Positions 5,244-24,406 of a stretch of DNA of 37,489 nt are shown here, piece after piece. The DNA comes from Thermococcus celericrescens (GTDB taxonomy: Archaea > Methanobacteriota_B > Thermococci > Thermococcales > Thermococcaceae). The stretch spans positions 1 through 37,489 of the forward strand of contig NZ_LLYW01000030.1 in NCBI RefSeq assembly GCF_001484195.1, read 5' to 3'. The translations under genes and the position numbers were made by a program. The stretch's first letter is position 1; every line of letters begins with the position of its first letter. The notes under the pieces are model-generated. The model did no database searches. It was not told the DNA's origin and worked only from the letters and a program-made list of their open reading frames with translations.

Positions 5244-5262
5244 GGGTGGTACGAAGGGCAGG

Positions 5263-5276
5263 TTTAAAAGCTTTTA
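5263..5276. promoter_or_regulatory. Palindromic bidirectional TATA region
   Basis: The 12-bp perfect palindrome TAAAAGCTTTTA at 5265-5276 sits between two divergent genes. Read rightward, TTTAAAAG lies 33-40 nt before the ATG at 5303. Read leftward, CTTTTAAA lies about 29-37 nt before the ATG at 5234. One AT-rich core could thus place TBP for both transcripts, which would be mutually exclusive in time. This is inferred from spacing only. Confidence 0.5.
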
Positions 5277-5302
5277 CCCTGAGGTAAACCTTGGGTGGTA
5301 GC

Positions 5303-5797
5303 ATGGAGAAGATGCCGAGGCTCTACGTGGAGGTTCCTCCAGAGGAGTGCATCAAAGGCGGAAAGGTCACCAGGGACTGTGTGATAATCCAGGGAAGCGT
5401 TGAGGTCTGGCTGAGAAAGGATGAAGGGGTTCCCGACTTCGTGGAGGCAGAGAGGGCGAAGTTCCTGGCGAAGGAGGTCTACGACAGGTTCTACCTCTAC
5501 GTGGACGGAACGGAGGGAAGGATGCTCGCCGACGCGATACTAATTCTCCCCGACGGGAGGACCAGGATATACCTGAAGAAGGGCGACGAGCTGCTCATCC
5601 TCCCCGTGGAGGGCTATACAAAGACCATCATAGCCAACGTTGGCAACCGTGTGAGGAGAGGAGACGCCTTCGCGGCGGTGACGACGAAGAAAGGGGAAGT
5701 CCACTACCTCAAGCCACCAAAGACGGGAACCGTCGTCTTCATAGACGAGATAACCAACAGGCCGCACTACGTGTACTACATCCTGCCCGAGGAGTGA
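5303..5797 (+). CDS. DUF2118-like conserved archaeal protein
   Basis: A 164-residue soluble protein with no signal or membrane segment. The C-terminal half (GNRVRRGDAFAAVTTKKGEVHYLKPPKTGTVVFI, split over about residues 117-150) looks like a biotinyl/lipoyl hammerhead fold without the modified lysine motif, as in the archaeal DUF2118 family. I assign that family with moderate confidence; its function is not established. The start at ATG 5303 follows GGGTGGTA closely. An in-frame TTG at 5291 is less likely, and an ATG at 5312 is possible. It has its own promoter (TATA at 5263-5270). Confidence 0.7.
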   Translation: MEKMPRLYVEVPPEECIKGGKVTRDCVIIQGSVEVWLRKDEGVPDFVEAERAKFLAKEVYDRFYLYVDGTEGRMLADAILILPDGRTRIYLKKGDELLILPVEGYTKTIIANVGNRVRRGDAFAAVTTKKGEVHYLKPPKTGTVVFIDEITNRPHYVYYILPEE

Positions 5798-5867
5798 GGG
5801 CTGTTTCATAGATGGTTAGAAGTGTGAAGTTTTGGTGTTTTTTGTCTTGCCGTAATTTTTAAATAGT

Positions 5868-6052
5868 TTTGAGGTGGATTTTGTTGTGATGGGCAGTCCT
5901 TGATATGTGGGGTTGTTAAGCCTGAATGGGGGCTGTCAAAAGCCTTGAAGATGTGGGGAGTCACCGTTCCCCCCGAAAGCCACCCAATGAAGACAGGAGG
6001 GTGGAAGGTTAGCCGCAACGAGATTTACAAACTTTACACAAACCACGGCTAA
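5868..6052 (+). pseudogene. Decayed ORF remnant between DUF2118 and the small leftward gene
   Basis: This 264-base gap holds a TATA-like TTTTTAAATA (5855-5864), a GAGGTG site (5871-5876) and GTG/ATG codons at 5886-5891, but that frame stops after a few codons. In another frame a stretch of about 50-60 codons is open to a TAA at 6050-6052. It reads VKPEWGLSKALKMWGVTV followed by GGWKVSRNEIYKLYTNHG. The end vaguely resembles the wing of MerR/excisionase-type DNA-binding domains. Promoter and start in one frame and protein-like sequence in another suggest a frameshifted remnant. No family can be assigned. Confidence 0.3.
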
Positions 6053-6061
6053 CCAGAACGG

Positions 6062-6358
6062 TCACCCCTTCCCCATCCCCGCCATCATGGCGTCTATGCT
6101 CGACTTGAGGGCCAGCTTTATGCCCTCCAGGGTGTCCATCCCCTTAAGTGTCCGGGTGTTGTGGGCGCTGGTTATGATTATCGACCACTTGTAGAGGTTC
6201 TCCTTAACCGGAACGCTCTGGAACATTGCGATGAACTTCTCCCCCTCCACAGAGGCCTCGAGTATCTCCACATCCGTCTCCCCCAGCTTCGTGGAGTAGA
6301 CTTCCCTAACTTCGAGGTTTCCATACTCCTTACTCAGCATGTCAGAAAGGTATCCCAT
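6062..6358 (-). CDS. Small hypothetical soluble protein
   Basis: A 98-residue protein (MGYLSDMLSKEYGNLEVREVYS...AMMAGMGKG), alternating beta and helix, with no signal peptide and no recognised family. The open frame continues far upstream through the FKBP gene on the other strand, but that part is only a shadow. The ATG at 6358 follows GGTGAT with 6-nt spacing, and a TATATAAGG box lies at about 6390-6398. An alternative ATG five codons earlier (6373) would sit at the expected transcription start. It is transcribed divergently from the FKBP gene. Confidence 0.65.
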   Translation of the reverse strand: MGYLSDMLSKEYGNLEVREVYSTKLGETDVEILEASVEGEKFIAMFQSVPVKENLYKWSIIITSAHNTRTLKGMDTLEGIKLALKSSIDAMMAGMGKG

Positions 6359-6484
6359 GTCAATCACCGGCATTATATAGTGCAACGTCCTTATATACCT
6401 GTCGTGCCTTCCGAAAGGGGACACCAAAAGCGTTATAAGGCGCGGGAGTAACCCCCCTTGAAGACAGTTTTGGAGTTGAAGGAA

Positions 6485-6982
6485 ATGAAGATTGAAGCTG
6501 GAGATTTTGTGGTGTTCCACTACATAGGCAGGTTTGAGAACGGTGAAGTTTTTGACACGAGTTACGAGGACATCGCCAGGGAAAACGAGATATACGTCGA
6601 GGAGAGGGAGTACGGCCCGCTCGGCGTCAATGTCGGTGTCGGCGAGATAATCCCCGGCCTCGACGAGGCGCTGATTGGGATGGAGATTGGCGAAAAGAAG
6701 ACCGTCACGATTCCGCCGGAGAAGGCCTACGGCATGCCCAACCCTGAGCTGGTTATAGACGTTCCCCTCACCGAGTTCACCAACATAGGGATGGAGCCGG
6801 TTGAGGGCATGTACGTCATGACTGACTCGGGGATAGCAAAGATAGCCAAAGTCGGGGAAGAGAGCGTCAGTCTCGACTTCAACCACCCGCTCGCAGGAAA
6901 GACCCTTGTGTTCGAGGTCGAGATAGTGGACATAGAAAAGGGAAAGGACTCAGAGTCCGAAGCCACCGCTGATGTTGAGTGA
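6485..6982 (+). CDS. FKBP-type peptidyl-prolyl cis-trans isomerase (short archaeal/SlyD-like)
   Basis: A 165-residue protein of the short archaeal FKBP class, which isomerises prolyl peptide bonds and acts as a folding chaperone in the cytosol. Visible features: the FKBP N-terminal strand (GDFVVFHYIGRFENGEVFDTSYE), the GVGEIIPGLDEALIGMEIGEKK segment that forms the active site, KAYGMPNPELV, then an inserted-in-flap (IF) domain of about 60 residues, and the closing strand LVFEVEIVDI. The in-frame TTG at 6458 is rejected in favour of ATG 6485, where the family starts (MKIEAGDFV). TATA GTTATAAGG lies near 6430. Its last 33 nt overlap the end of the convergent secretion gene. Confidence 0.93.
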   Translation: MKIEAGDFVVFHYIGRFENGEVFDTSYEDIARENEIYVEEREYGPLGVNVGVGEIIPGLDEALIGMEIGEKKTVTIPPEKAYGMPNPELVIDVPLTEFTNIGMEPVEGMYVMTDSGIAKIAKVGEESVSLDFNHPLAGKTLVFEVEIVDIEKGKDSESEATADVE

Positions 6983-7864
6983 CGAGACGCCTTGATAGAC
7001 GGCCACACCCACAAGCATCAACATGAGACTGTACTTAAGCCCAGCTGAGTACTTTCCTTCTCTTATTACCCCAATTCCAAGGCCGGAGATAAAGGCCTGA
7101 ATGACAACGAAGCCCAGGAGTATCAGTTTGATAGTGTCAACCGGGAGTACCACCATGTCCGTTCCCATTGTCTCCATGACCTTATAAACGACCGCGAGTA
7201 TCATGGGACCTATGAATCCACTGGTTATTATAAAAAACATCATCTGCATGCCCGTGGAAGCCTTGCGCTCCTGTCTGATTCTGAGTATCTCTCTCACGTC
7301 GTTGCCGACGTAGACCAGAACATCGCTCATAGGGGCACCGCGCTCTAGGGCCTCAATGATAATCATCATCGATCTGTACAGGACCACAGATTTTCTGTTC
7401 CGAATTGCAAAGGCCCTGAGGGCATCGACGGTGGGACGGCCCTTCTTTATCTCCGCCACGGTCTTCTTAAACTCATCAGTCAACGCCCCGAACTTGGCCG
7501 TGGTAAGCTCCTCCAGCGCCTCCGAGAAGGATATTCCAGCACGGAGTGAGCTGGCAAGGTAGAAAAACGCATCGGGAAGGTTCTTCTCCATCTCCTCAAC
7601 ACGCTTCATGACTTTCCAGTAGGGATACCCAAAGGCCATACTAAGGAAGAGGGCAATGAACGCGGCCACAGAGTAGGGCCATGTGGACACCATCTCCACA
7701 AGGAGCGCACCAATAATACCGAACAGGATGGAGATAACGAGATACTCAACAGCAAGGAAGTTCAATCCCGCCGAATAAATGAATATCTCATAACGCTTCA
7801 CCCACTTCTGGGGAAGGATCCGTTGAAACGCAGAGACCAGCAGAGACGTTATTCCACGGGGCAT
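6950..7864 (-). CDS. Type II/IV secretion F-type membrane platform (GspF/TadC-like), second copy
   Basis: A 304-residue protein of the T2SSF/TadC family, the inner-membrane platform of archaeal type IV filament and secretion machines. It has membrane segments near 40-85 and three or more at the C-terminus. The central cytoplasmic domain carries the family pattern NLPDAFFYLASSLRAGISFSEALEEL and RQERKASTGMQMMFF. The ATG at 7864 is chosen because GGTGATC, overlapping the previous gene's stop, lies 5-6 nt upstream; a GTG at 7873 is the longer option. It is the last gene of the klbA operon and pairs with the preceding F-type gene, as in Tad systems that use TadB and TadC. Confidence 0.9.
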   Translation of the reverse strand: MPRGITSLLVSAFQRILPQKWVKRYEIFIYSAGLNFLAVEYLVISILFGIIGALLVEMVSTWPYSVAAFIALFLSMAFGYPYWKVMKRVEEMEKNLPDAFFYLASSLRAGISFSEALEELTTAKFGALTDEFKKTVAEIKKGRPTVDALRAFAIRNRKSVVLYRSMMIIIEALERGAPMSDVLVYVGNDVREILRIRQERKASTGMQMMFFIITSGFIGPMILAVVYKVMETMGTDMVVLPVDTIKLILLGFVVIQAFISGLGIGVIREGKYSAGLKYSLMLMLVGVAVYQGVSSLNISGGFGL

Positions 7865-7869
7865 GCGGA

Positions 7870-8934
7870 TCACCTGGGTTCTCCCTTCTTGATCATGCTT
7901 ATGATTATGAACGACACCCCCGGAAACGCGAAGAGCAGTATCACCGCGAGGGCCTCGGGGGGCATGACGAGATGCTGGGACATCACAGAACCTGCCAGGA
8001 TGCCAACGACGAACATTGTGGGCATGACGATCGTGAGGAACATGTAAACGAAGGATATACCGTTGACTTTCTGGACGTACTCAACCAACTTCATCCTGTA
8101 CTCAAAGGAGAAATCCTCCGCCATTTTATAGAGTATCTCGGAGAGGTTGCCGCCAAACTTAACCGCCCTCAGTATCTGTTTAACCACCCTGCTAACGCTT
8201 TCGGACCCCATTTTCTGCTCAAACTTGGATAGGGAGTCTTCAAAGGAAGAACCAGCCCTCATCCCCATCAGTATAAACTCGAACTCTTCAGAGATTGGGC
8301 CGTAGTCAGCCCTGGACACCGAAAGCATGGCCTCCGCGATACCGACGCCAGCACTAAGTAGTGAGGCCATATGCCTGAGGGCGTAGGGAAGGGCACGTTC
8401 CACCTCCACCACGCGTCTCTTCCACACCATGCGGGGGTAGTGCCTCATGTACATGAATCCACCGATAAAACCAAGGACCGACAGCAGGACTATTATATCG
8501 GGTGTCAGGTAGAGCAGATATCCAAACAGGGCAGAGAACACCGCGGAGAAAATAGCCACCAGGAGTATGAGGGCAACGTATTTTTCCTTGGGCGTTGTCA
8601 TGCTGGCACGGTAAAGGTCCTCATCCAGGCCCCGGAGGGATTTGGTAAGGGACTCTATGGGACCCTTAAAGTAGCGCAGCATGGCATCCGCAAGCCTGTC
8701 AAAGAACGGGCGCTGTATTTCCTGCTTCCGCCACTCCAGGATTTCTTCAAGCTGCTTCTCCCTTTCCTCCTCCCGCTTTTCAGTTTCCATCTCCTTCTGG
8801 AGCTGTTTGAGGGCCTTCAGTCTCTCCTGAACTGACTTGCCCTCCGGTATCCTTCTGACGGGCCTTTCCGCAACCTCGATAGTTTTTCCCCCGAGGCGCT
8901 CGAGGAAGTTGACAAACGCATCGAAGACCCCCAT
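7870..8934 (-). CDS. Type II/IV secretion F-type membrane platform (GspF/TadB-like), first copy
   Basis: About 354 residues. A charged coiled-coil-like N-terminus (ERLKALKQLQKEMETEKREEEREKQLEEI, split over about residues 35-65) precedes a membrane pair and a cytoplasmic T2SSF domain (VERALPYALRHMASLLSAGVGIAEAM), then more membrane segments. It is a platform protein driven by the KlbA ATPase. The ATG at 8934 follows GGTGAT by 4 nt; ATG 8940 and TTG 8949 are in frame. It overlaps or abuts klbA upstream and shares its stop region with the second F-type gene, so the three form one transcriptional unit. Confidence 0.9.
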   Translation of the reverse strand: MGVFDAFVNFLERLGGKTIEVAERPVRRIPEGKSVQERLKALKQLQKEMETEKREEEREKQLEEILEWRKQEIQRPFFDRLADAMLRYFKGPIESLTKSLRGLDEDLYRASMTTPKEKYVALILLVAIFSAVFSALFGYLLYLTPDIIVLLSVLGFIGGFMYMRHYPRMVWKRRVVEVERALPYALRHMASLLSAGVGIAEAMLSVSRADYGPISEEFEFILMGMRAGSSFEDSLSKFEQKMGSESVSRVVKQILRAVKFGGNLSEILYKMAEDFSFEYRMKLVEYVQKVNGISFVYMFLTIVMPTMFVVGILAGSVMSQHLVMPPEALAVILLFAFPGVSFIIISMIKKGEPR

Positions 8935-8945
8935 CGACATCACCT

Positions 8946-11900
8946 TCAAATCAAAGTCCTTATCTGCCTGCTCGTCTCAGTGCTGCCCTCGGCTTCGATT
9001 TTCTTCAGAAGCGACTCCTCGTCTATGTAGAACTGCCTGATGTAGTAGCCAACTTTCTCGATGCTCCTGATACCTCTTTCAATCATCCAGTCAAGGATTA
9101 TCTTTCTCTTCTCCTTCTCCAGTTCCAGCTCAGAGACGCTCATTCCCGTGTGGTGGGCGAGGAGATTGAGGGTTCTGCTGGGGACACCCGTTGATACGAG
9201 CTCGTCCTTGGCAGGGTCGTACTTGTAGAGCTTGTTGAGCTGTATGCTCTCTCCCTCAACTCCCGATATCTCCGCTATCTCGGTGATGCGCCTTATGGTA
9301 CCCTTCTTTCTGCTGTGGAACCTGACCTGCATGATGATTATATCCAGCGCCGGAATCATGATCCTCGGAACGGACATGGGAGGGCTCTCAAGGCGTATTA
9401 CTGTCTCGCGGGCACTGTTGGCGTGGATTGTACCCATACAGTTCGAAACAAGTATACCGTTGGCAACGTAGTTGTGGTCCTCCTCGACGGTGAGGTCGTA
9501 GAGGTACTCTATACCCAGCTCCACCGGCTCGACCTCATCAACGCTCACGACCTCGTCCCAGTAGACGTCGCCGTCCGCTATGAGCTCAAGCCTCTTCGCC
9601 TGAATCCAGGCCTCGTCATCGTTCAAATCCTTCGCCACCTGCTGGAGGGCGAGGGCTATTCCCTTCAAAGCGGAGCGCCTTATCTCCTTCACCCTACCCT
9701 TCTCGACGTGGCGTATGAGGCTTTCTGAAACCTTCTCGCTGGCGTGGCTGGTGGCGAGCTTTGAAAGCTCGGAAACCCTGAGGTTGAGCCTCCCTCTTAT
9801 GGGTTCGAGCATTGACGGCGAAATCGGAACGCGGTCGGTCCTCTTTCCGCGGTGCGGTCTGTACTTCCTGATGAGCTCCTCAAGCTTCGCCTTCTTCCTT
9901 GAGTGCCTGAGGGGAATCGAGCGGTTGAACCTGATGATGTCGTCAACGCCCCTCACGGTGACCCTGAAGATTACGCCCTCCTTGTAGCCTTTGTTCCTCA
10001 CGCGGGAGACCGTGCTTATTATCCCGAGCCTCTGAAGGGCGTACCAGACCTTCCTCGCGAGGTTCTCACTCTTCGTCGTGAGGATTACAGCTGGGCCGTT
10101 CTCGTCAACGTAGCCATCGGCATCGAAGAGGCCCGCTATGAAGTACCTCAAAAGCTCGTCGTTCGACAGCACCAAATCGGGCACGTCGAGGTTCTCCTTC
10201 CTGCCCTTTGGGATTCTGAATGCCCTGTGAAGGAACTCGGCGAATATCTTCGAGCCGTAGGTCACAACGGTGTAGCCCTCGTTTCTTTTGATTTCGGGCT
10301 CGCTCTCCGGCAGGAACTCCGACAGGGCTGAGGTGAAGGCGTTCATGTAGGAGGAGTCGTCGAAGGTGGCCGAGACGTAGTAGCCGTTCGAGGAGATGTA
10401 GCCGTCGCCGAGGATTACGCCAACGGCATAGGAGAGCTTCTCGTCCACCTCGCGGACAATCCTTACGGGCTTCGAGTTGACTGAGATTAAATATTGGGCC
10501 ATTTCAGGCGGGATTCCGTCGTTCGGAACCTTCACGAGGCCCTCTCCGTTGGGGACGAGGTAGTAGTCACTTATTCTCGCGTAAACCTCCGGACTTACGA
10601 TGGCCTTCCTCTGCGGTGGCCTCGGCGGTTTCCTCATCACCGCGACCCTATCGCCGGGTTTCAGCTTCTCCGCCTCTTTTCTCACGACGTCGCCATCGGA
10701 GAAGACGAAGAACGGGTGGGTCTTGGTGAGTATCACCTCGTTGCCTGTCCTCGTTCTCACGCGGATAAGCTTCTCCCCGGGCCTTACCTTTCTCCTCCAG
10801 ACCCTTGAAACGATGTGCTTCCCGGCATTCAGGTCGGGGCCGACGCTGACTACCTCGAACCTATCCTTCTCGTCGAGGACTATGTACTCCAAATCCTTGT
10901 AGGTTTCAACCCTGTCCGAGTACTTCTCGAAGAGTTCATCGATGAGATCACCGATGAGCACGAACCTGCCGTCCGAGAGCTGTATGACCGAGAAGTCGTA
11001 GAGGGCCCCATTATGTCCCGTGTTCATTGCCGTGAACATCGTCCTCGCTTCGGGACCACGAACCTCACCAACGATGATTCTATCCGGCCTCATACGGAGG
11101 GTGTTCTTAACGAGATCGTCCATTGTTATCTCGCCCTTGCCTTCAACGTTGGGCGGTCTCGTCTCAAGCCTCACCCAGTGCTCCACCGGGAGCTGGAGCT
11201 CCGCGGTGTCCTCTATGGTGATGACGCGCTCGCTCGGTGGAATAAACATCCCGAGTGAGTTGAGGGTGGTGGTCTTACCGGAACCGGTACCACCCGCGAC
11301 GAGGACGTTGGCGGGCTTGACACCGAGTCCATCGACAAAGATCCAGAGGAGGGCCGCTATGTCGGTGTTCATAGTGCCGTATTTGATGAGGTCTATGATG
11401 GTGAGCGGGTCCTTCTTGAACTTACGGATGGTTATCGTCGGGCCGTCGAGGCTGATCGGCGGGATTGTCGCGTTCACACGGCTTCCATCGGGAAGGCGGG
11501 CATCAAGGAGGGGACTCTGCTGGTCTATCCTCCTGCCGACCTCCCTGGCTATGCGCTCGATGATGTTCAGTATCTCCTTCTCCTCCTCAAACACGATGTT
11601 GGTCTTGCACATGTTAAAGCGCCTGTGCCAGACGTAAACCGGCCTGTTGGTTCCTATGACCATGACTTCCTCAAGGTTGTCGTCGCGGACGAGGGGATCC
11701 AGTTTGCCGTAGCCTATCATGACCTGAACTATCATGTCGGCGAGTACCTCTATCCTGCCCTCCGAGAAGTGGGGGGCCGCAGACTTCAGCATTTTCCTGA
11801 TGGCGTTCATGAAGACCCTTCTCCGTTCCTCCGGATTTGGAAAGGCGGTGGGGTCTATCTGGAGCTCCGTTATTGCCCGTTCTTTTATGAGGCGGAGGAG

Positions 11901-12425
11901 TTCCTCCTCCTCTCTGCTGAGTTTAGGGAGACGTATTTCATATATCGGGACGGGTTCCCCCTTAACCCGCAAAATGCGAACGTTACCATAGGCATCGAGA
12001 ACCTCAGCCTTTCCAACGTACTTTGTTTCCTCCGCGGGGGGGAACGTGCTCAATATATCCTGAAGGGTTGAGGGGGGTGGTGATGTGGGTTTCGCCTTGG
12101 GCTTGGGCTCCTCCCTCGGCGGTGCCGTGGAGAAAATCTCCCCCAGAAGGTCTGCCCCGGTGGGGCGACTCTGAGCGGCTTCCTCGGGAGTGGTGGGCTT
12201 GCTGAGTATCTCCTGAAGGTCTATACCCCCACTTCCCGCAATGGGGAACGGGGCCGCTGGGGCCTCTTTTTCACCGGACTTCTTTCTCTCAGGTTCTTTT
12301 TTTTCCTCCTTAGGAGCGGTCTTTTTGCTGGAGGTCAGCATATTCTCCAATAGGTCACCCTCACCGTTCAGGATTTCATCTATCCAGGAGGTGGGCTTTT
12401 TCTTCTTCTCATCATCAAACGCCAA
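8946..12425 (-). CDS. klbA: KlbA-type type II/IV secretion ATPase with an in-frame intein
   Basis: A 1159-residue precursor. The host protein is a GspE/VirB11-type hexameric ATPase that powers pilus assembly or secretion. It has a variable Pro/Lys-rich N-terminus (1-130), an N-terminal domain, Walker A GGTGSGKT (378-385), Walker B region RIIVGEVRGPEA, and the His box MGTIHANSARE. Between NTGHNG and CMGTIHAN lies a 522-residue intein (residues 474-995), leaving a 637-residue mature ATPase. The start is TTG at 12425, after a G-rich site and 3 nt beyond the stop of the upstream gene. The downstream partners are the two F-type membrane proteins. The same gene holds an intein at the same site in Methanocaldococcus jannaschii and several Thermococcales. 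Confidence 0.95.
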   Translation of the reverse strand: MAFDDEKKKKPTSWIDEILNGEGDLLENMLTSSKKTAPKEEKKEPERKKSGEKEAPAAPFPIAGSGGIDLQEILSKPTTPEEAAQSRPTGADLLGEIFSTAPPREEPKPKAKPTSPPPSTLQDILSTFPPAEETKYVGKAEVLDAYGNVRILRVKGEPVPIYEIRLPKLSREEEELLRLIKERAITELQIDPTAFPNPEERRRVFMNAIRKMLKSAAPHFSEGRIEVLADMIVQVMIGYGKLDPLVRDDNLEEVMVIGTNRPVYVWHRRFNMCKTNIVFEEEKEILNIIERIAREVGRRIDQQSPLLDARLPDGSRVNATIPPISLDGPTITIRKFKKDPLTIIDLIKYGTMNTDIAALLWIFVDGLGVKPANVLVAGGTGSGKTTTLNSLGMFIPPSERVITIEDTAELQLPVEHWVRLETRPPNVEGKGEITMDDLVKNTLRMRPDRIIVGEVRGPEARTMFTAMNTGHNGALYDFSVIQLSDGRFVLIGDLIDELFEKYSDRVETYKDLEYIVLDEKDRFEVVSVGPDLNAGKHIVSRVWRRKVRPGEKLIRVRTRTGNEVILTKTHPFFVFSDGDVVRKEAEKLKPGDRVAVMRKPPRPPQRKAIVSPEVYARISDYYLVPNGEGLVKVPNDGIPPEMAQYLISVNSKPVRIVREVDEKLSYAVGVILGDGYISSNGYYVSATFDDSSYMNAFTSALSEFLPESEPEIKRNEGYTVVTYGSKIFAEFLHRAFRIPKGRKENLDVPDLVLSNDELLRYFIAGLFDADGYVDENGPAVILTTKSENLARKVWYALQRLGIISTVSRVRNKGYKEGVIFRVTVRGVDDIIRFNRSIPLRHSRKKAKLEELIRKYRPHRGKRTDRVPISPSMLEPIRGRLNLRVSELSKLATSHASEKVSESLIRHVEKGRVKEIRRSALKGIALALQQVAKDLNDDEAWIQAKRLELIADGDVYWDEVVSVDEVEPVELGIEYLYDLTVEEDHNYVANGILVSNCMGTIHANSARETVIRLESPPMSVPRIMIPALDIIIMQVRFHSRKKGTIRRITEIAEISGVEGESIQLNKLYKYDPAKDELVSTGVPSRTLNLLAHHTGMSVSELELEKEKRKIILDWMIERGIRSIEKVGYYIRQFYIDEESLLKKIEAEGSTETSRQIRTLI
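9441..11006 (-). other. KlbA intein (class 2, Ala1) with LAGLIDADG homing endonuclease
   Basis: A 522-codon intervening protein inside klbA. It starts with Ala (ALYDFSVIQL) rather than Cys or Ser and ends HNYVANGILVSN before Cys+1 of the C-extein. Block B is visible as VILTKTH (TxxH). Two LAGLIDADG helices are present: VGVILGDGYIS (about 665-675 of the precursor) and IAGLFDADGYV (about 762-772). Ala1 inteins at this KlbA site use the class 2 route, in which Cys+1 attacks the N-terminal splice bond directly. Both endonuclease acidic residues are kept, so homing activity may persist. Confidence 0.95.
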
Positions 12426-12428
12426 CTT

Positions 12429-13280
12429 TTACAGCCCCCCCGCGCTCCATTCAACACGGTAGGTTATCTCCACACCGGTTCCCGTTGTGACGACCCACAC
12501 AGGCAACTCGTATGATTCATTCGACGGGAGAACCTGACCTGGCATTCCAACACTGACACCGGTAAGAAGCGTTGGAGTGAGCTGGAACATCCCCTGTGGC
12601 ATCTGAACGCTGTTTTCTACGTTCACAGAGCGCCTCCCTGTTCCGGTGTATTCAAAAAGTGCGTCCACATACTCGCTGTAGTCCATGGTGTAGTTCGGAG
12701 TGAAGTCGTACATCCTCCCATCAACGAACACAACCGGGACGGTAACGGCAAAGAACTTCTTGAATGTACCCTCATCCCCCGAGTACACGTTGAACTTAAC
12801 GACTCCCTGGTACTCCAGAATACGGATGTGTCCATCGACGAGTGGGAACATTGAGAGCGCCGAGAGCTGGGATGGGGAGTTAAGGAGAGGAGGCACAACA
12901 ACACCGCAGCCGATGGAGGTACCATCGGTTCCCCCACACGTAATGGACGGGAGAGAGTATGACTCGGTTTTGGAGACCCTGACGTTTATCACAACGGTTT
13001 CGTACGGCATAATCCATATGCCAGGATTGTAGTTAAGGTTCATTCCCTTATCTATGTAGAACCCAAGGTCCGTCTCATTGTTCCCGCGCCGGTAAACGGT
13101 TATATTGTACGCGGGATTGAGAACAAGAAACTTGGGAAACGGGGCGGTGTTTACAAGGGTAACGTTAAGGTCGATTAGAACATCACCCTGGAGTGTGCCT
13201 GCGGCCCGCACTTGATAGTGGCCAGGCAGAGCCGCAAATAACGAAATGAAAAGTAAAAGAAATGCCGCGGGGCGTTTCAC
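12429..13280 (-). CDS. Exported protein of the klbA operon, function unknown
   Basis: 283 residues with a clear signal peptide (KRPAAFLLLFISLFAALPGHYQVRAAG, first ~27 residues), then an all-beta extracytoplasmic protein with several N-glycosylation sequons and no C-terminal anchor. The GTG at 13280 is chosen: it follows GAGGTGATAGCC and yields the signal peptide, whereas the longer frame to 13349 runs into the upstream gene. It lies between the DUF515-like gene and klbA, 8-11 nt from one and 3 nt from the other, so it is very likely an external or envelope component of that filament system. No named domain recognised. Confidence 0.75.
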   Translation of the reverse strand: MKRPAAFLLLFISLFAALPGHYQVRAAGTLQGDVLIDLNVTLVNTAPFPKFLVLNPAYNITVYRRGNNETDLGFYIDKGMNLNYNPGIWIMPYETVVINVRVSKTESYSLPSITCGGTDGTSIGCGVVVPPLLNSPSQLSALSMFPLVDGHIRILEYQGVVKFNVYSGDEGTFKKFFAVTVPVVFVDGRMYDFTPNYTMDYSEYVDALFEYTGTGRRSVNVENSVQMPQGMFQLTPTLLTGVSVGMPGQVLPSNESYELPVWVVTTGTGVEITYRVEWSAGGL

Positions 13281-13290
13281 GGCTATCACC

Positions 13291-14722
13291 TCACGTCGAT
13301 ACTCTGACAAGGTAAAGGGAGTTCTGGTTGGCCAGCACGTCCGGGACAAATATCGAGGGAACTTTGACTATAACGAGCAGCTGGGTGTTGTGGTCAATGG
13401 CCTCCAGTGACGTGTCTTTCTCGAGGTCAAGAACCTTCCATCCGTACGCACTGAGCTGCTGCTTAACCTCCTCGCTGGCCTGTATCTTACCGGCGGCTAT
13501 CGCTTTGAGTATCTCCGCCAGGTTCACGCTGTAGGAGTAACTGCCAGACGAACTCTGACTCACTGACTGGCTGTTGGTGACGGAGTCACTCGCACTGCTG
13601 CTGTCAGATATCGAGGCTCCACCCGGGGAAGCGGATGAGGAGTGGCTCTCACTGTAAGTGGTCGATGAGGAAGTGGAGGAGGAACTTGACTGACTCTGGG
13701 ACTCACTCACTGATATCGAACCCGACTGAACCGGCAGGAGGACAAGCTCAAAGTACCCGTCAACCGTCGTTGTGTTCTGGCCCTGGATAAAGAGTTTTAT
13801 TCTGTCACCCGGCGAAAGGAACGCACCGTTTATGTTTCTCTTGGGGAGGACAAGGGACATCTCCACCCACTCAACCTTCACGACGTTGTACTTCATAAGC
13901 TCCTTATAGTCCATAATGCCTCCCAACACAGCTTTGGCATCAGCCTTAGTGACCATCTTCTTGGAGTCTCCGTACTCAAGTATCACATCCTGTCCCGGGA
14001 GGGCGTCAATGCGCCAATAGTAGTAGTCCCTCCACACCTCCAGGAGGTACGGGTCGGCCTTTATGGAGTTGACCTCATCAACACTAGTGGCGGACATGAC
14101 GCGCTCCTTGAGGTCGTTCATGTACGTTACAGTTTTGGTGCGGATGTCATCTGGGAGAGGCATCGAGAGAAGCGGCTGGAACTCAAGCTCAAGGAGTTTT
14201 AATTTCTGCTCCTTTGTCCGGTTCAGCTGCTTCTCCAGCTCCACCCGATGGAGTTCATCGATACACGAATTGTACTCACGCAACGCAATGTCATAGCTCC
14301 CCTTAACATCAACGGCATTGAGTTCATCAACGGATTTGGCGTGAAGGATCTGGTCGAGCAGCTGGGATTTGATAGCGTTGGCTTTGGGGGAGCAGTTGGT
14401 ATTGTTGAATATATCGGGCTTGAAGTAGAGGTTAACCTCAGCCAGTTTTTTGTTTCTGGCGTTGGTAAGTTCCTCGGCGGCACGGTTTTGGAGATAGATG
14501 TAGGCGCCAACTGATGTCAGAATTAGCACAATTATCACGATAGAAACTCCTATTAGGATCCTCTTCCTCCGCTCTTTCTCGCGGATACTACCAACCGAGC
14601 GCGGTCTCCGGGAGGGTTTTTTAGCAGGGGCGGGTTTGGGGGCCACGGGGGGGCTCTGGTTCGGCGCTGGCTTTACCCAGCTCCCTCAAACGGCGAATCT
14701 TCGCCTCGATATCCTCGGACAC
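13291..14722 (-). CDS. DUF515-like membrane-anchored protein, apparently frameshifted near its start
   Basis: The main frame (13291-14646, about 450 residues) has a basic Pro/Lys-rich start, one membrane segment (IGVSIVIIVLILTSVGAYIYL), helical extracytoplasmic repeats, and a striking Ser/Gln-rich linker of about 75 residues before a C-terminal domain. It fits the archaeal DUF515 group encoded with KlbA. Upstream, a second frame starts at GTG 14722 with GGTGGTG six nt before it and reads SEDIEAKIRRLRELGKASAEPEPP before leaving frame at a run of seven G on the plus strand (14647-14653). Six would fuse both parts into one protein. First gene of the filament operon; a TATA box (GATATAAG) lies at about 14760-14769. 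Confidence 0.75.
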
Positions 14723-16176: not shown

Positions 16177-17427
16177 CTAACCGGAGCCAGAGGATACAAA
16201 GGCCAGACCGGCGCTTAGAACCGCCATGGCGAGGCCGGGAGCCACTATCCACCACCAGTAGCCCCCGTAGAGCGCCCCCTGGTTCATGGCCTCTATCATG
16301 AACGACCCCCAGTTGGTGCCCGGAATCAGGCCGAAGAACCCAAACACCGAAACCAGTGCAACTATCCTGGCCAGGAGTATGGTGGAGTACCTGAGGGAGA
16401 ACTCCCCAACCGGCGGGAGTATGTGCCTCCTCAGGACCCAGAGCGTGCCGGCGCCCATGCTCACCGCGGCTTTGACGTACTCGTTCACCTTCTCCCTTAT
16501 CGTCATCATTCTAACCGTCTTGGCGAACTTCCCGAGGGTGAGGAGGGCAACGAGGAACATGAAGAGGACGGGGTTTATCCTGACCTGCTGGCCGTAGCCC
16601 TGGGTGGAGAAGAGCCAGACGAGGACGACGAGGATTGGGAGCATCGGCAAAGCGACGAGAACCTCCAGGAGGAACGTTATGAACTCACCCAGGGCACCGC
16701 CAACGTAGCCCGAAATGAGACCTATTAGAACCCCCAAGGCCACTATTATGGCGGTGGTGAAGAAGGCCAGGTAGAGGGTGTTGTTCATTCCCTTGACGAA
16801 GCCCACCCACATGTCCCTGCCGTAGGAGTCCGTGCCGAGGAGACCGTAGCAGGTTCCGAGGATTTCAACGGAGGGTGTGGCGTTTCCCGCTAAGCGAACC
16901 TCAAAGACGTACTCTCCGTTGAGAGTCGCCATACTTCCGTCGCGGGAGAACAGGAGTTCAGTGGCGGAGAAGAGAACGTATTCAGCTTCGCTGAGATTGA
17001 GAACGTCGGAAAGCGAAGAAACAACTCCCGTGCGCATGTTGGTGTTGAGGCTGAGGTTGCTCGAGGTCGCTATACCGCCGTAGAGGGGCACTCTAATCCC
17101 GTCCGGCCTCAGAACGCTTATCTCAACCTCCTCACCGTAGGGGAGGCCGTAGAACCTAACGTCGCTCGGTTTGTCGTGGTAGGCATGTTCGTAGGAAAAC
17201 CTGTAAACTGAGGAACCGTTCTCCTCAACGAGCGACGGCTCCAGGAAGACCGTGGGAGTTCTGTCGCCGAATAGGGCGAACCACGAGGGATATGCCATTC
17301 GCGGGTTGTCCTTCCAGTAGTTGAGATTCTCCCAGTTGGCAATGTCCTCATCGCTCACGCCCGCGTTCGAGAAGGCCACAAAGAGCGCGAAGATTACGAG
17401 TATCGCCACTCCAGCTTTCCATCCCAT
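16177..17427 (-). CDS. ABC transporter permease, DppC/OppC type
   Basis: A 416-residue permease of the peptide/nickel (Dpp/Opp) family. One N-terminal membrane segment is followed by a large extracytoplasmic region (about 25-205, glycosylation sequons), then five membrane segments. The EAA loop that contacts the ATPase is present (VNEYVKAAVSMGAGTLWVLRRHILPPV). It pairs with the DppB-type gene, 1 nt upstream. No ATPase or solute-binding protein is encoded in the window. It ends back to back with the GTPase gene, so the operon stops here. Its position downstream of the radical SAM and peptide genes suggests peptide movement; direction and cargo are inferred. Confidence 0.9.
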   Translation of the reverse strand: MGWKAGVAILVIFALFVAFSNAGVSDEDIANWENLNYWKDNPRMAYPSWFALFGDRTPTVFLEPSLVEENGSSVYRFSYEHAYHDKPSDVRFYGLPYGEEVEISVLRPDGIRVPLYGGIATSSNLSLNTNMRTGVVSSLSDVLNLSEAEYVLFSATELLFSRDGSMATLNGEYVFEVRLAGNATPSVEILGTCYGLLGTDSYGRDMWVGFVKGMNNTLYLAFFTTAIIVALGVLIGLISGYVGGALGEFITFLLEVLVALPMLPILVVLVWLFSTQGYGQQVRINPVLFMFLVALLTLGKFAKTVRMMTIREKVNEYVKAAVSMGAGTLWVLRRHILPPVGEFSLRYSTILLARIVALVSVFGFFGLIPGTNWGSFMIEAMNQGALYGGYWWWIVAPGLAMAVLSAGLAFVSSGSG

Positions 17428-17428
17428 T

Positions 17429-18460
17429 TCAGCTCACCCTCGGATCGAGCAGTCCCTTGGTCAGCTCAAGTAGCAGGGAGAAGAGGAACGTTATGGTGGC
17501 TATCGACAGCGTTACGACGAAGAAGAGGCGGTAGTCGAAGCGCACCACCACGCCTATGGCCGGGACTATGGTCCTGACGAAGCTGGCCCTTAGGAGGGTT
17601 CCAAGACCGCCGAGGCCGAAGAGGACGTCGATGACTATGTAATCCGTGAACATCTCCACGAACTTCTGGACCGTGAAAGAACTCAGGACGATGGAAACGT
17701 TTCTGAGGACGTGCTTCCTGTATATCAGCCCCTCGGGAAGGCCCTTGGCCCTCTCAGTGAGGACGTAGGGCTTTCCAAGCTCGTTCCTCACCTCGTGGGC
17801 CACGGTGACCACGAACTCCCAGACGTAGACGAAGACCAGCGTGGAAACCGGGAGGACGAGGTGCCAGAGGACGTCCAGGAAACCCTCAAAGCCCTCCTTT
17901 GGTGGAGTGCTCCTCAGGCCGGCTATCGGAAAAACCCCCAGCTCGACCGCGAAGACCGCTATCAGAACCGCCCCTATCCACCAGGAGGGCAGGCCGTTGA
18001 AGAAACGCGCCAGTCCCTCAACCGTCCCAAGAAACCTTCCATTTGCCAGCCTGAAGCCAAGGAAGAGACCCAGGAGGAGGGTCAAGACCATGGCCAGCCC
18101 CATGACGGCGAGGGTCACCTTTATGACGTGGGCGAAGTCGTACTTGGGGTTCTCGCGGTAGTAGTCAAAGCTCTTCCTGAGGAGGTCTATCCCCATGAGG
18201 AGAAGGTTGTCGGTTCGGACTCCCTTCGCCTTCGTGAGTATTCGGTGGTAGTACTCATCGACTGTCAGGCCCTCCCTGGTGGCGTTCCTCTCAAGTTCGG
18301 CGTAAAGAGCGGGGTTGGATTCACGGATATGGAGAACGGCTTCGTGGGTGTACTCCCAGGCTATCTTGTTGGAGCTAGCGCCGGCTACCAGAACGATCAC
18401 TAGGAGGACGCCAAGGTAAACCGCCACCAGCCGGGCGAGGGTCCTGATCGGGAGTCTCAT
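17429..18460 (-). CDS. ABC transporter permease, DppB/OppB type
   Basis: A 343-residue permease with the DppB layout: membrane segment 1 (about 12-28), an extracytoplasmic region of about 80 residues, and five further segments, with the EAA loop KPYVLTERAKGLPEGLIYRKHVL. It forms a heterodimer channel with the following DppC-type protein. The ATG at 18460 follows GGAGAGG. It lies 58 nt after the small peptide gene; the gap holds an AT-rich tract that may be a weak terminator or a promoter of its own. An ATPase must be borrowed from elsewhere in the genome. Confidence 0.9.
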   Translation of the reverse strand: MRLPIRTLARLVAVYLGVLLVIVLVAGASSNKIAWEYTHEAVLHIRESNPALYAELERNATREGLTVDEYYHRILTKAKGVRTDNLLLMGIDLLRKSFDYYRENPKYDFAHVIKVTLAVMGLAMVLTLLLGLFLGFRLANGRFLGTVEGLARFFNGLPSWWIGAVLIAVFAVELGVFPIAGLRSTPPKEGFEGFLDVLWHLVLPVSTLVFVYVWEFVVTVAHEVRNELGKPYVLTERAKGLPEGLIYRKHVLRNVSIVLSSFTVQKFVEMFTDYIVIDVLFGLGGLGTLLRASFVRTIVPAIGVVVRFDYRLFFVVTLSIATITFLFSLLLELTKGLLDPRVS

Positions 18461-18518: not shown

Positions 18519-18665
18519 TCAGATTGGCTCGGGTCTGTAGCATATGTCCTCCGGCCACCAGCACTCCCAGTCCTCCGGGAACGGGCAGCCGCCCTGGTCG
18601 AGAGCTCCACAGGGCCCGATCCAGATCTTGGTCTTGTCTCCGGGGTTCACGACCTCGAACTCCAT
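18519..18665 (-). CDS. Putative ranthipeptide precursor with four CX3(D/E) motifs
   Basis: A 48-residue peptide, too short for most gene finders. Leader: MEFEVVNPGDKTKIWIGP; core: from Cys19 to the end, rich in Trp and Pro. The four cysteines (19, 27, 35, 42) are each followed three residues later by an acid: Asp23, Glu31, Glu39, Glu46. No other cysteines occur. This CX3D/E repeat is the substrate pattern of PapB-type radical SAM enzymes, which join Cys sulfur to the beta or gamma carbon of the acid (freyrasin). The ATG follows a strong GGAGGTAGGTGA site that lies inside the end of the radical SAM gene, with 19-nt overlap of the two genes. The leader/core split is inferred. Confidence 0.85.
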   Translation of the reverse strand: MEFEVVNPGDKTKIWIGPCGALDQGGCPFPEDWECWWPEDICYRPEPI

Positions 18666-20113
18666 ACTTCACCTACCTCCTTTTTAATTTTTGACTCATC
18701 GGCCGAAGCCTTGCTCACCCCGTGAGGGGGTGAGTAGTAATCAAGTGATTTCAACATCTTCTCGAAAATCACAGGGTGGTTTCGCTTAACCTTGACGTAA
18801 AGCCACATGGAAAGCCGTATCAGCTCTCTAATGAACTCGCAGTAATAGGGGTCAGGTTTGTGAATGTCCCCGGAATACATGTAGTTTATGTAGTAACAGC
18901 CTCCCCTACACAAGGGATAGGCCCAGCAGTGGTTGCACGGTTCCCTCGGGGGATTGCGAAGTATCTTTTGTATCACCTCTGAATCAACATTGACACCCAA
19001 TCTAACGTCCCCCACGACGAACTCGTCCATTCCCACGAACCTCTGACATGGGTAAAGCTTTCCGTCCGAGGATACACCAAAAAGTTTCCTGCCAGCGCCG
19101 CAAGGATAGACAAGGGCACGCCTTGAGGCGAGGATCGTGAAGTACTTCCTGAAGTGGGAGTACCTAAACATCTCCGTCTCCTCGATGTGCTCGAGTTCGT
19201 ACTCGGCAATGAGTTTCAGTTGTTCCTTCAGTGGTGAGACTATCTCGCGGAAACTATCTGAGCCGATAGATGCGGGCTCAATGTGAACACTCCTAACGCC
19301 GTTTTCCACAAAAAATCTAAAAATTTCAAAATACCTGTCAATCTGCTCCGGAAGTATCGTTGCCCTCACAGTCACAGGAACACCACTGGTAAGCAGGAGC
19401 CGGAGGTTTTTCATTACAACGTCAAACGTTGGATCCCCAGTTTTCGTGGGCCTGTTGTGATTCTGTATCTCCCTGGGTCCGTCCATGCTGAGAACGACGT
19501 TAAAGCGGAATCTTTTGAAGAAATCCACAACAGAAGGCGTTATCAGGTAACCGTTTGTGGTGATGCTGAAATTAACGGTCTTCCCCAGGGAGGCTGCCCT
19601 CCGCGAAAGAGTCTCGGCAATATATCTGAGCATGTGGAAGTTCAGGAGAGGCTCACCCCCGAAGAAACCAACTGACAGTTTGGAAGACCCCCTGGAAAGC
19701 AAAAACTCAATTATGTCATCTGCATCATTTTCATCACGTATCATAAACGGCAGAATCCCGTGCTGCTGCTCATAACAATACACGCATTTAAAGTTACACG
19801 CACTCGTCAGGTAGAGGGCAACGGAAGTTGGAACAACCTCGGACGATTTAGAGTCCACGCTCAAGTAAGGAGGAACCGCGCTTAAGGCCTTCAGGCCTTC
19901 TATCACCCGGTTCACATCTTGAGGGCTGATTTCAGGGTATTTTTTTAAGAACTCACTAACGCCCTCTTCGACTCCGCGCTTTCTGATGGAATCAAGCAGT
20001 TCATAGCTCTCAGCATCCAGCCGAATAAGGTGGAGCGTCTTTGGCGAGAACAGAATGTACTCATCGAGTACCTTGTCAAGATATAATGAACTAACAAATC
20101 CATCGCCACCCAT
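18647..20113 (-). CDS. Radical SAM/SPASM peptide maturase (thioether-forming, inferred)
   Basis: A 488-residue enzyme. Residues 1-95 resemble a PqqD-like peptide-recognition (RRE) domain. The radical SAM core has CX3CX2C (CNFKCVYC, Cys106/110/113) and GGEPLLN. The C-terminal SPASM domain has the complete seven-cysteine set (338, 356, 393, 396, 402, 406, 425; visible as CNHCWAYPLCRGGC), which holds two auxiliary Fe-S clusters. Such enzymes install thioether or C-C links in ribosomal peptides. The ATG at 20113 is preferred over 20119 because GGTGA lies 7 nt before it. TATA CTTATAAG is at about 20149-20156. The substrate is taken to be the overlapping 48-residue peptide. Confidence 0.93.
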   Translation of the reverse strand: MGGDGFVSSLYLDKVLDEYILFSPKTLHLIRLDAESYELLDSIRKRGVEEGVSEFLKKYPEISPQDVNRVIEGLKALSAVPPYLSVDSKSSEVVPTSVALYLTSACNFKCVYCYEQQHGILPFMIRDENDADDIIEFLLSRGSSKLSVGFFGGEPLLNFHMLRYIAETLSRRAASLGKTVNFSITTNGYLITPSVVDFFKRFRFNVVLSMDGPREIQNHNRPTKTGDPTFDVVMKNLRLLLTSGVPVTVRATILPEQIDRYFEIFRFFVENGVRSVHIEPASIGSDSFREIVSPLKEQLKLIAEYELEHIEETEMFRYSHFRKYFTILASRRALVYPCGAGRKLFGVSSDGKLYPCQRFVGMDEFVVGDVRLGVNVDSEVIQKILRNPPREPCNHCWAYPLCRGGCYYINYMYSGDIHKPDPYYCEFIRELIRLSMWLYVKVKRNHPVIFEKMLKSLDYYSPPHGVSKASADESKIKKEVGEVWSSRS

Positions 20114-20147
20114 ATACATTCACCGCGTATGGTTCTGTAACATCACA

Positions 20148-20158
20148 AACTTATAAGA
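20148..20158 (-). promoter_or_regulatory. TATA box of the radical SAM/peptide operon
   Basis: On the minus strand TTCTTATAAGT lies 35-45 nt before the radical SAM start at 20113, which fits transcription starting near 20127. No competing TATA box is seen between it and the gene. The divergent Trm14 promoter lies about 145 nt away. Confidence 0.6.
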
Positions 20159-20207: not shown

Positions 20208-21428
<1,221 letters not shown>

Positions 21429-21975: not shown

Positions 21976-22560
21976 TCACGGGTGGAGCACTCCCATAACG
22001 GTCAGGACCGCGAAGAGGAGCGTCATTGCCGCCTCTCCGACCATCAGTCCGGCCGCGACCGGGAGCACCTTCTCGGTTATGAACTCGTTGCCCTTCTTCC
22101 TCTTCGCCACCTCGTGGACGATACAGCCTAGGCCGTAGGGCAGGATGTAGAGCATCGGCAGGTACATCGACAGGCCGACGAGGACGCCAAGTCCCGGTAT
22201 TCCGCTCATGGAGAGGGCGAAGCCGAGGATTCCTCCCGCGATGAACTTGTCCACCGGGACGTTGCCGCCGAGGATCGCATCGACCATGGACTTGAGGGCC
22301 ATGGCCTGCGGGGCCGGGACGGTCTCGTTTCCGATGCCGTAGGCCTTCCATATGAGGCCAACGACGGTGAGGGCTATTATCGGGCCTATCCAGGCGGTGA
22401 GGAGCTCAACCTTCTGCTGCCTGGAGGGAATACCGCCAACGAGGTGGCCGGTCTTGAGGTCCTGCATCATGTCGGCGGCGCCGGAGATGGCGACACCGAC
22501 GGTGGCTCCGAGGAGTATGGTCAGCGGCACCTGCTTGCCGGTGAGGTAGAGGAGTATCAT
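21976..22560 (-). CDS. OPT-family transporter, C-terminal part (separate frame)
   Basis: 194 residues continuing the OPT (oligopeptide/YSL) fold: ILLGATVGVAISGAADMMQDLKTGHLVGGIPSRQQ is the conserved C-terminal OPT motif, followed by four or five membrane segments. It starts at an ATG overlapping the stop of the N-terminal part as ATGA. In homologues this is one polypeptide of about 580-630 residues. One additional base near 22562-22568 would join the two as one chain through SLVSVMILLYL. So this is either a frameshifted gene or a two-subunit transporter made by coupled translation. Confidence 0.8.
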   Translation of the reverse strand: MILLYLTGKQVPLTILLGATVGVAISGAADMMQDLKTGHLVGGIPSRQQKVELLTAWIGPIIALTVVGLIWKAYGIGNETVPAPQAMALKSMVDAILGGNVPVDKFIAGGILGFALSMSGIPGLGVLVGLSMYLPMLYILPYGLGCIVHEVAKRKKGNEFITEKVLPVAAGLMVGEAAMTLLFAVLTVMGVLHP

Positions 22561-23726
22561 GACGACACGAGGGAGAGGCCGGAGACAGGGCTCCAGTCGG
22601 TCATTCCGGTGGACATGGCAACGAGCAGCGAGGCGACGAATATCCAGGCGACACCGACGAGTGCCGTGAGCAGGCTCCTGCCGATACCGAGGCCGCCGAG
22701 CTGGTAGGTGGTTATCAGCAGGAGGAGGAAGGCCAAGGCTATTCCGGCGTAGAGGTACTTTATCGGGAGCTCCTCGTTCCTGCCGGTTCCGAGCTTGCTC
22801 GCGTTGGCTATGCTCTTAAGGGCGACTATAATGACGGGCATCGAGAGTATGAGGCCCGCTATCGAGCCGCCGAGGAGCATTCCGATACCGAGCGGCCTGG
22901 TCATGTTGGCGTAGACGAAGCCGCTAATCGCTCCACCGGTGACGTCGCTCGGGAGCCAGCCGAGGGTCTTAACTATGGGCGTGATGATGTAGTATGAGAG
23001 TATTCCACCGGCGAGGACTATGAGGCCGTTCCTTCCGGTGATGAGGCCCATTCCGAAGACCATCAGCGAGAGGGCCATGGCCAGGCTGACCCACTCGGGG
23101 AGGTGGAGTATGGCTCCAAGGTCAATGTACTCGGGGATTATCTCCGGAAGGCCGAGCACCGGGAACTGCTGGACTAGATAGACGGCCGCGCTGACGGCCA
23201 TGCCGAGGAAGAGCAGTCTGGCCTTCTCGATTCCGCTTCCCGGGGTCTTGAGGACGGTAGCGACGGCCGTTCCGGTCGGGAAGCGAAGCCTGTCGATCTC
23301 GATCATCTGCTTCCTCAGCGGGATTATGAAGGTGATTCCCAGTATAGCTCCGGCTGCTGTGGCGAGGAAGAAGTACGTGGTGTTTATCTCCTCGTGGAGT
23401 CCCATGATGTAGAGCGCCGGGATGGTGAAGATGACTCCCGAAACGGAGATGTTGACGGCAGAGGCTATGGTCTGGACGATGTTGTTCTCAACGACGGTTC
23501 CCTTCTTGAGGATTCCCCTGAGGACTCCCCAGCCGACGATGGCAGCTATCGCCGAACCGCCGGAGGTGAAGCCCATTATCATTCCCGCGTAGGTGAAGCT
23601 GGCGGCCATGAAGGCGCCCCAGATGACACCCAGTATTATAGCAGCGGGCGTCACTTCGCGGTAGGTCTCGTCCGAATCCTTACGCTTCCAGCTCGCGTCT
23701 CCAACCTTCCAGTTGGCATCCGCCAT
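22557..23726 (-). CDS. OPT-family oligopeptide transporter, N-terminal part
   Basis: 389 residues with about ten membrane segments. Family landmarks are TPAAIILGVIWGAFMAASFTYAGM at the start and RFPTGTAVATVLKT in the middle. OPT carriers are proton-coupled importers of oligopeptides or metal chelates. The start ATG at 23726 (MADANWKVG) follows GGGGGTTGGGAG; the longer frame to 23840 reads through the leader. The sequence ends at MSTGMTDWSPVSGLSLVSS, exactly where homologues continue into the C-terminal part. Leader of about 60 nt with a palindrome; see that entry. Confidence 0.85.
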   Translation of the reverse strand: MADANWKVGDASWKRKDSDETYREVTPAAIILGVIWGAFMAASFTYAGMIMGFTSGGSAIAAIVGWGVLRGILKKGTVVENNIVQTIASAVNISVSGVIFTIPALYIMGLHEEINTTYFFLATAAGAILGITFIIPLRKQMIEIDRLRFPTGTAVATVLKTPGSGIEKARLLFLGMAVSAAVYLVQQFPVLGLPEIIPEYIDLGAILHLPEWVSLAMALSLMVFGMGLITGRNGLIVLAGGILSYYIITPIVKTLGWLPSDVTGGAISGFVYANMTRPLGIGMLLGGSIAGLILSMPVIIVALKSIANASKLGTGRNEELPIKYLYAGIALAFLLLLITTYQLGGLGIGRSLLTALVGVAWIFVASLLVAMSTGMTDWSPVSGLSLVSS

Positions 23727-23772
23727 CTCCCAACCCCCTGCACAGTTATGAGCATTCATGTCCACGTTCTTT

Positions 23773-23788
23773 AGGAATGTGCATTCCT
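23773..23788. promoter_or_regulatory. Operator-like palindrome at the OPT transcription start
   Basis: AGGAATG-TG-CATTCCT is an inverted repeat with 7-bp arms and a 2-bp spacer. A leftward TATA box (CTTTATATTA, about 23808-23817) lies 20-30 nt upstream, so the palindrome sits at the predicted start of transcription. That is a usual place for an archaeal repressor. The binding protein is not known. Confidence 0.45.
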
Positions 23789-23840
23789 TGGAGATTGGCC
23801 CGTTTGGTAATATAAAGTTTTTCAGACCTGTAAATGCCAA

Positions 23841-24067: not shown

Positions 24068-24406
24068 TCAGACCTTAATGGTCACGTCAATGACCGCGGT
24101 CTCTTTGCCGGGGTTCCTCACCACGACCTTCCACCTGCCCTTCGGAAGTTCAACGACCGCATTCACTTCCCTGACGGTTCCAAAATCCCTCAGCACGGTC
24201 CCGTCGGAGGAGACAACCTTCACCTCAATGGGAACGCTGGAGCTTATCTCAACCGTCAGATTCGCCGGACCCCTGAAGGGCCACTCTCTGCTCTCCCCGG
24301 CTGGAACGCTCTTTCCCCTGGTGTAGACGAAGTTGTTGTCGAGACAGCCCGCAATCAGGATTGAGAGGACAAGGACGACAACCACCAGCCAACGGACGGG
24401 CTTCAT
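24068..24406 (-). CDS. Small lipoprotein
   Basis: 112 residues: a basic start, a hydrophobic helix, and the lipobox LIAGC with Cys21, so it is expected to be lipid-anchored outside the cell. The mature part (about 90 residues) is all beta with an Ig-like pattern ending VVVRNPGKETAVIDVTIKV, a putative binding or adhesive domain. The ATG follows GGTGGTGTC. TATA-like TTTTTAA tracts lie at 24425-24445, which double as the terminator of the FAH gene. No named family. Confidence 0.8.
   Translation of the reverse strand: MKPVRWLVVVVLVLSILIAGCLDNNFVYTRGKSVPAGESREWPFRGPANLTVEISSSVPIEVKVVSSDGTVLRDFGTVREVNAVVELPKGRWKVVVRNPGKETAVIDVTIKV

Follow-up and report, generated by a model that had tools for sequence, protein, structure and literature searches.

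The window, a stretch of 37,489 nucleotides from Thermococcus celericrescens (contig NZ_LLYW01000030.1), was found to carry two overlapping genes on its minus strand. The upstream gene (18647–20119, minus strand) encodes a radical SAM/SPASM maturase of 490 aa, as judged from its open reading frame, NCBIfam and Pfam matches, and alignment; a second in-frame ATG at 20113, the start taken in the first-pass annotation, would yield a protein of 488 aa and is placed at a better Shine–Dalgarno spacing than the first. The downstream gene (18519–18665, minus strand) was read as an ORF for a putative precursor peptide of 48 aa. It overlaps the enzyme gene by 19 nt and is preceded by a strong Shine–Dalgarno sequence, AGGAGG (18676–18681, minus strand, by direct reading), which lies inside the 3' end of the enzyme gene. 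Ahead of the enzyme gene, TTATAA (20151–20156, minus strand) is a candidate TATA box for an enzyme–peptide transcript. The site is bordered on one side by genes for an OppB-like ABC permease (17429–18460, minus strand), 58 nt downstream of the peptide gene, and an OppC-like ABC permease next to it (16177–17427, minus strand; NCBIfam and Pfam), and on the other side by a divergent gene for a THUMP-domain RNA methyltransferase (20244–21428, plus strand; context comparison and Pfam).

In the peptide, Cys19, Cys27, Cys35, and Cys42 are each followed at position +4 by an acidic residue, namely Asp23, Glu31, Glu39, and Glu46. The four resulting CX3(D/E) motifs, which the first-pass annotation had described correctly, are encoded on the minus strand at 18597–18611 (Cys19-X3-Asp23), 18573–18587 (Cys27-X3-Glu31), 18549–18563 (Cys35-X3-Glu39, within CWWPED), and 18528–18542 (Cys42-X3-Glu46). 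It had also been argued that such spacing would be unlikely to arise by chance. When the Cys residues were held fixed and the other core residues permuted, all four acids fell at +4 in 0.22% of the shuffles and shared some single offset between 1 and 6 in 1.4%, and the window peptide taken alone is therefore only moderately surprising. In a frame control, the window and 13 context loci gave 340 stop-to-stop frames of 25–150 aa that contain four or more Cys; among them, the window peptide was the only one with an acid at a common offset (2–6) from every Cys.

The enzyme displays a CX3CX2C cluster motif formed by Cys108, Cys112, and Cys115 (residues 108–115; 19775–19798, minus strand; alignment) and a SPASM region (residues 340–430; 18830–19102, minus strand; Pfam and alignment) with Cys residues at 340, 358, 395, 398, 404, 408, and 427. 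None of these Cys residues varied among the 17 aligned sequences, and both the Radical_SAM and SPASM models of Pfam scored above cut-off. The cluster motif, the seven SPASM Cys, and the overlap with the peptide gene noted at first sight were all confirmed. In the AlphaFold2 model of the enzyme (mean pLDDT 75, pTM 0.79), an RRE-like winged-helix domain was predicted at residues 7–80 (19880–20101, minus strand), with strands at 13–34 and helices at 36–80, giving three strands and three helices within residues 13–80; the Pfam PqqD model stayed below its cut-off there (16.4 versus 23.4). The top fold match of the model was the crystal structure of the SCIFF (thermocellin) maturase CteB (Foldseek E 8e-23), which is also the closest solved structure and could be aligned from the RRE onward (Z 32.8 over 417 residues, rmsd 3.9, model residues 10–445, 23% identity). 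The proposed check of the RRE fold by a structure model thus turned out in its favor. Since the pLDDT fell below 50 near the cluster motifs, as it did at the C-terminus, no active-site reasoning was built on the model.

Among the NCBIfam models, those of PapB (NF047865; 236 bits, E 6.3e-70) and QhpD (TIGR03906, also named peaB; 235.9 bits, E 8e-70) were practically tied at the top, followed by the nif11 maturase model (222 bits); the SCIFF maturase model (TIGR03974) gave 175.5 bits. Because none of the cut-offs was reached, the enzyme was filed under none of these families. Its assignment as a PapB or QhpD member was rejected, given curated cut-offs of 340 and 453 bits, respectively, and the label "freyrasin-like/PapB" could accordingly not be upheld as a statement of membership; judged on these scores, the enzyme is PapB-like without being placed in PapB itself. 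Moreover, each of the four models matched 17 of 17 aligned enzyme relatives, nif11 and SCIFF included, and the ranking alone therefore leaves the chemistry unfixed. On the other hand, the two best models both represent enzymes with known Cys–Asp/Glu thioethers, which supports such chemistry here; the initial assignment of the enzyme class and of a likely, predicted Cys-to-acid thioether formation is supported. Considering the fold match to CteB and the nif11 and SCIFF scores, the enzyme might instead be a sactipeptide- or SCIFF-type maturase that attaches Cys at alpha carbons or at residues that are not acidic, the acids serving for charge only. We consider this improbable, inasmuch as the PapB and QhpD models outscore the other two, the SCIFF score falls far short of its cut-off of 425, and three related families each show Cys–acid spacings specific to their clade (see below). 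It speaks against the Cys-to-acid reading, in turn, that the SCIFF substrate of CteB has a Thr acceptor, as given in the review PMC8172795.

Orthologues of the peptide were detected in 4 of 94 Thermococcaceae genomes, each adjoining an orthologue of the enzyme (L005–L008; hereafter clade 1), and the remaining 90 genomes gave no peptide match at E 0.001. Residues 1–10, which resemble a leader, were identical in all four, and motifs 1, 3, and 4 were likewise kept throughout. The peptides of G016 and G022 are near-identical, with the G022 tail beyond motif 4 differing and Glu46 retained. In the most divergent orthologue, that of G017 (77% identity), residue 31 is Lys and Asp32 is retained; motif 2 is thus kept in three of the four. 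Homologues that retain the Cys and lose the acids at +4 had been named beforehand as what would refute the ranthipeptide assignment, and this came true in part: one of the four acids is lost in G017, the other orthologues keeping all of theirs. Altogether, 15 of the 16 clade 1 Cys have an acid at +4, with three of the four sequences being near-identical. Between the window's genome (G000) and G017, dN and dS were 0.14 and 0.66 for the peptide and 0.09 and 0.67 for the enzyme; by segment, peptide residues 1–10 showed no amino-acid change, whereas 11–24 evolved fast and 25–48 slowly.

A 48-residue peptide with four Cys and several Trp, for which there is no NCBIfam family and no Pfam family above cut-off, could also be a mini-protein that binds a metal (such as Zn or an Fe–S cluster) or forms disulfides, the enzyme then modifying something else or nothing. 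This explanation appears very unlikely, as the peptide gene stands with the enzyme gene at all four intact sites, the 90 other genomes gave no match to it at E 0.001, its Cys spacing is not CX2C, and the sister enzymes have Cys–acid peptides of their own.

The comparison with QhpD raised a further alternative. CWWP (peptide residues 35–38) also occurs in the stretch of Paracoccus QhpC that bears the CTQ, the match being weak and from a single pair (E 0.011, 20 residues), and QhpD is a co-top model for the enzyme; the peptide could hence be imagined as a QhpC-like redox peptide with thioethers and a Cys–Trp or quinone cofactor at CWWP, as in the CTQ of QhpC. We find this hardly credible: the Cys–Trp spacing is unlike that of the QhpC CTQ pair, the Pfam model QH-AmDH_gamma had no match to the window peptide even at E 1, and the cassette includes no gene for a flavoprotein or haem subunit. 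The same model (PF08992) matched 0 of 94 genomes at E 0.01, in a search whose control was also without a match. As in the window, qhpD lies directly before and overlaps qhpC, and its product forms Cys–Glu/Asp thioethers in QhpC, reported as Cys7–Glu16, Cys27–Asp33, and Cys41–Asp49 in PMC8172795. By contrast, QhpC is an enzyme subunit with longer Cys–acid spacings, and the genes around the window cassette include none for an amine dehydrogenase.

OppB orthologues of at least 61% identity were detected in 12 genomes, where they adjoin either the THUMP methyltransferase gene or that of the enzyme. Of these 12 orthologous sites, four have the intact cassette, three hold remnants, and five are without trace. 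In G023 (L120, reverse complement 1265–1500), an in-frame ORF of 76 residues corresponds to the enzyme RRE only and ends at the OppB start, suggesting either a remnant or a free-standing RRE; the G026 remnant consists of the promoter followed by some 30 codons that are interrupted by a 1-nt gap, and that of G077 of about 55 nt. TTATAA or a similar box was also present in the G023 and G026 remnants. Within the 300 bases before OppB covered by this test, G014, G039, G033, G044, and G042 showed no trace of the cassette, G042, with a score of 24 where shuffles reached at most 22, being counted among them. This distribution of intact, remnant, and empty sites indicates that the cassette is accessory and, as far as the site sequences go, has probably decayed more than once. 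A single recent gain was left unsupported, as three sites hold remnants of the enzyme 5' end with different break points.

All five trace-free sites have a TTTATATA-like box of their own for OppB, and none was found at the intact sites in the few bases between the peptide gene and OppB, where OppB may therefore be read from the cassette. The proposal that the OppB/OppC permeases are parts of the cassette was weakened by the finding that OppB is present at 8 of the 12 sites where no intact cassette accompanies it. Homologues of both (32–38% identity) were nevertheless encoded in five of seven clade 2 context loci and in none of three clade 3 context loci (these clades are described below), so that a functional link between permeases and cassette is possible. 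The cassette itself encodes neither an exporter nor a protease. Elsewhere in the window, a small lipoprotein-like ORF without Pfam match (24068–24406, minus strand), 4 kb from the enzyme, is 35–40% identical to an ORF that three clade 2 clusters have after their peptides. An OPT oligopeptide transporter extends over two overlapping minus-strand ORFs, 21976–22560 and 22557–23840, corresponding to profile positions 425–622 and 1–418, respectively, which represents a frameshift or a two-gene form.

When the window enzyme was used as the query, 16 of 94 genomes gave matches at E 1e-30 or better. By sequence, the window cassette belongs to a set of three related families in Thermococcales, which keep the Cys-before-acid order and differ in spacing. 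In a 35-row maturase tree, from which PapB was left out, clades 1, 2, and 3 grouped together with support of 97/97, and clades 1 and 2 with 93/88, which is below the star threshold. The rule of CX3(D/E) inferred from the window peptide thus held for clade 1 apart from Glu31 in G017, and gave way in the sister families to acids at +3/+4 or +5.

Clade 2 comprises nine loci whose enzymes are 40–43% identical to that of the window; between one and three short ORFs with CX2D/CX3D motifs come after the enzyme gene. Asp occupied +3/+4 at 87 of 106 Cys in 17 peptides, compared with a shuffle expectation of 42.3; four of the 17 peptides were singly non-significant (P 0.26–0.42). Upstream, homologous genes for an ABC-2-type permease and an ATPase were found at 7/7 loci examined (the wide context was covered for seven of the nine loci, and Pfam was run on the G000 copy), being directly adjacent in six. 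At the six loci that share the first leader, the enzymes are 86–93% identical and the 14-residue leader agrees at 13–14 of 14 positions, whereas the cores are only 25–38% identical in 12 of 15 pairs; G054, G016, and G000 have one common core. The window's own genome contains such a clade 2 cluster (L137, G000:C25:4000-18000, reverse complement 4340–14001), with three Cys–Asp-rich precursor peptides, a lipoprotein-like ORF, OppB/OppC homologues, and two ABC-2-type permease/ATPase sets.

Clade 3 consists of seven loci with 28–35% enzyme identity and an MFS-type gene downstream, the enzyme at L020 being truncated. Its peptides carry CX4D and then mostly CX4E, with an acid at +5 of 14 of the 17 Cys in eight peptides. 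An additional clade 3 enzyme is encoded on the Thermococcus nautili 33-3 plasmid NZ_OX281346.1, where an unannotated 34-residue clade 3 peptide (L150, 9492–9596) lies between the radical SAM and MFS genes. Outside the order and within the same class, G113 (L147, G113:C86, 7190–7840) has an enzyme gene followed by three CX2D/CX3D peptides; two of these have the same core, one of which lacks an ATG/GTG/TTG start. When the surroundings of 36 distant loci (33 of 80 genome-contig loci and three of G113) were filtered for short Cys–acid peptides, this was the one locus that the filter showed convincingly, besides four unconvincing ORFs. A scan of viral contigs with the enzyme gave at least 80 loci, with a best identity of 31% among those.

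The first-pass annotation knew of no described example from Thermococcales. Among the papers listed on Thermococcales and archaeal RiPPs and on CefB, from a collection with few subscription journals and without bioRxiv, none described these systems; the window pair is, however, no lone case, given the nine clade 2 and seven clade 3 loci and the plasmid copy. Ranthipeptides are among the abundant antiSMASH-predicted archaeal RiPP classes, with clusters across archaea, in a mining study whose main text lacks the string "Thermococc" (PMC12144867); the same study describes archaeal lanthipeptides that antagonise haloarchaea. Resemblance to the CefA peptides, which have a Cys at every fifth position, was limited to one of ten scanned sister peptides (a weak match of 18.8 bits versus a cut-off of 30), and with the CefB model the window enzyme scored 132 versus 600 bits.

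Among the closest counterparts is PapB of Paenibacillus polymyxa with its substrate PapA (freyrasin), which shares with the window pair the best-scoring NCBIfam model and the Cys-first Cys-X3-acid motifs. PapA is a short precursor adjoining PapB, as in the window pair. The latter differs in being archaeal, in having four motifs (three with Glu) rather than six, and in its enzyme score of 236 against the cut-off of 340; its Thermococcales sister families, furthermore, have X2 or X4 spacing. PapB is described in PMC9413430 as forming six Cys-X3-Asp/Glu links and as accepting n = 0–6 in vitro while refusing the reverse order, whereas the review PMC8172795 states that in co-expression it kept strictly to CX3D, rejecting X2 for the most part and X4 altogether. 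Because these reports conflict, the X2 and X4 sister families need not have the same chemistry. By this comparison, the Cys-first order seen here would fit PapB chemistry, and the spread of spacings between the clades appears to agree better with the in vitro report than with the strict one.

Taken together, we propose, with a probability of roughly 0.77, that the window pair is an accessory two-gene cassette for a thioether RiPP, in which the enzyme is predicted to weld the four peptide Cys to nearby acids. Going by its sequence, the enzyme likely works like PapB and QhpD. As we envisage it, the N-terminal RRE would bind the constant N-terminus of the peptide (about residues 1–10), and a 5'-deoxyadenosyl radical, generated at the SAM cluster, would abstract hydrogen from the side-chain methylene beside the carboxylate, that is, from C-beta of Asp or C-gamma of Glu. 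The Cys thiolate would then close the thioether, the electron passing to the SPASM clusters. Four rings would result (Cys19–Asp23, Cys27–Glu31 or Cys27–Asp32, Cys35–Glu39, and Cys42–Glu46), with an expected loss of about 8 Da. The leader would presumably be removed, and the product would most likely be an exported or cell-surface accessory peptide acting in competition between close relatives. The signal or antimicrobial role suggested in the first-pass annotation is a hypothesis; an accessory, competitive role is favored by the patchy presence, the remnants, and the hypervariable sister cores.

The three spacing families and the hypervariable clade 2 cores are the more interesting part compared with the window pair alone. 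It is about an even chance that Thermococcales hold their own radiation of Cys-to-acid maturases, with ring size set per clade (X3, X2/X3, and X4), in which clade 2 would be combinatorial for competition among hyperthermophiles (one enzyme and a near-constant 14-residue leader with swapped cores) and the window cassette would represent a conserved four-ring member kept or decayed by lineage. If this is true, the families would provide thioether-stapled RiPPs of hyperthermophilic archaea made by sibling enzymes differing in ring size, a natural series for studying how radical SAM maturases set the Cys–acid spacing, and a supply of heat-stable enzymes for stapling peptides, and the clade 2 clusters would turn chemical competition by ribosomal peptides among Thermococcales into a testable question. 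Separately, a different conserved Cys peptide of 39 residues was noticed at L025 (1278–1397) and L026 (1280–1399), upstream of a radical SAM enzyme of 32% identity that is followed by an MFS-like gene.
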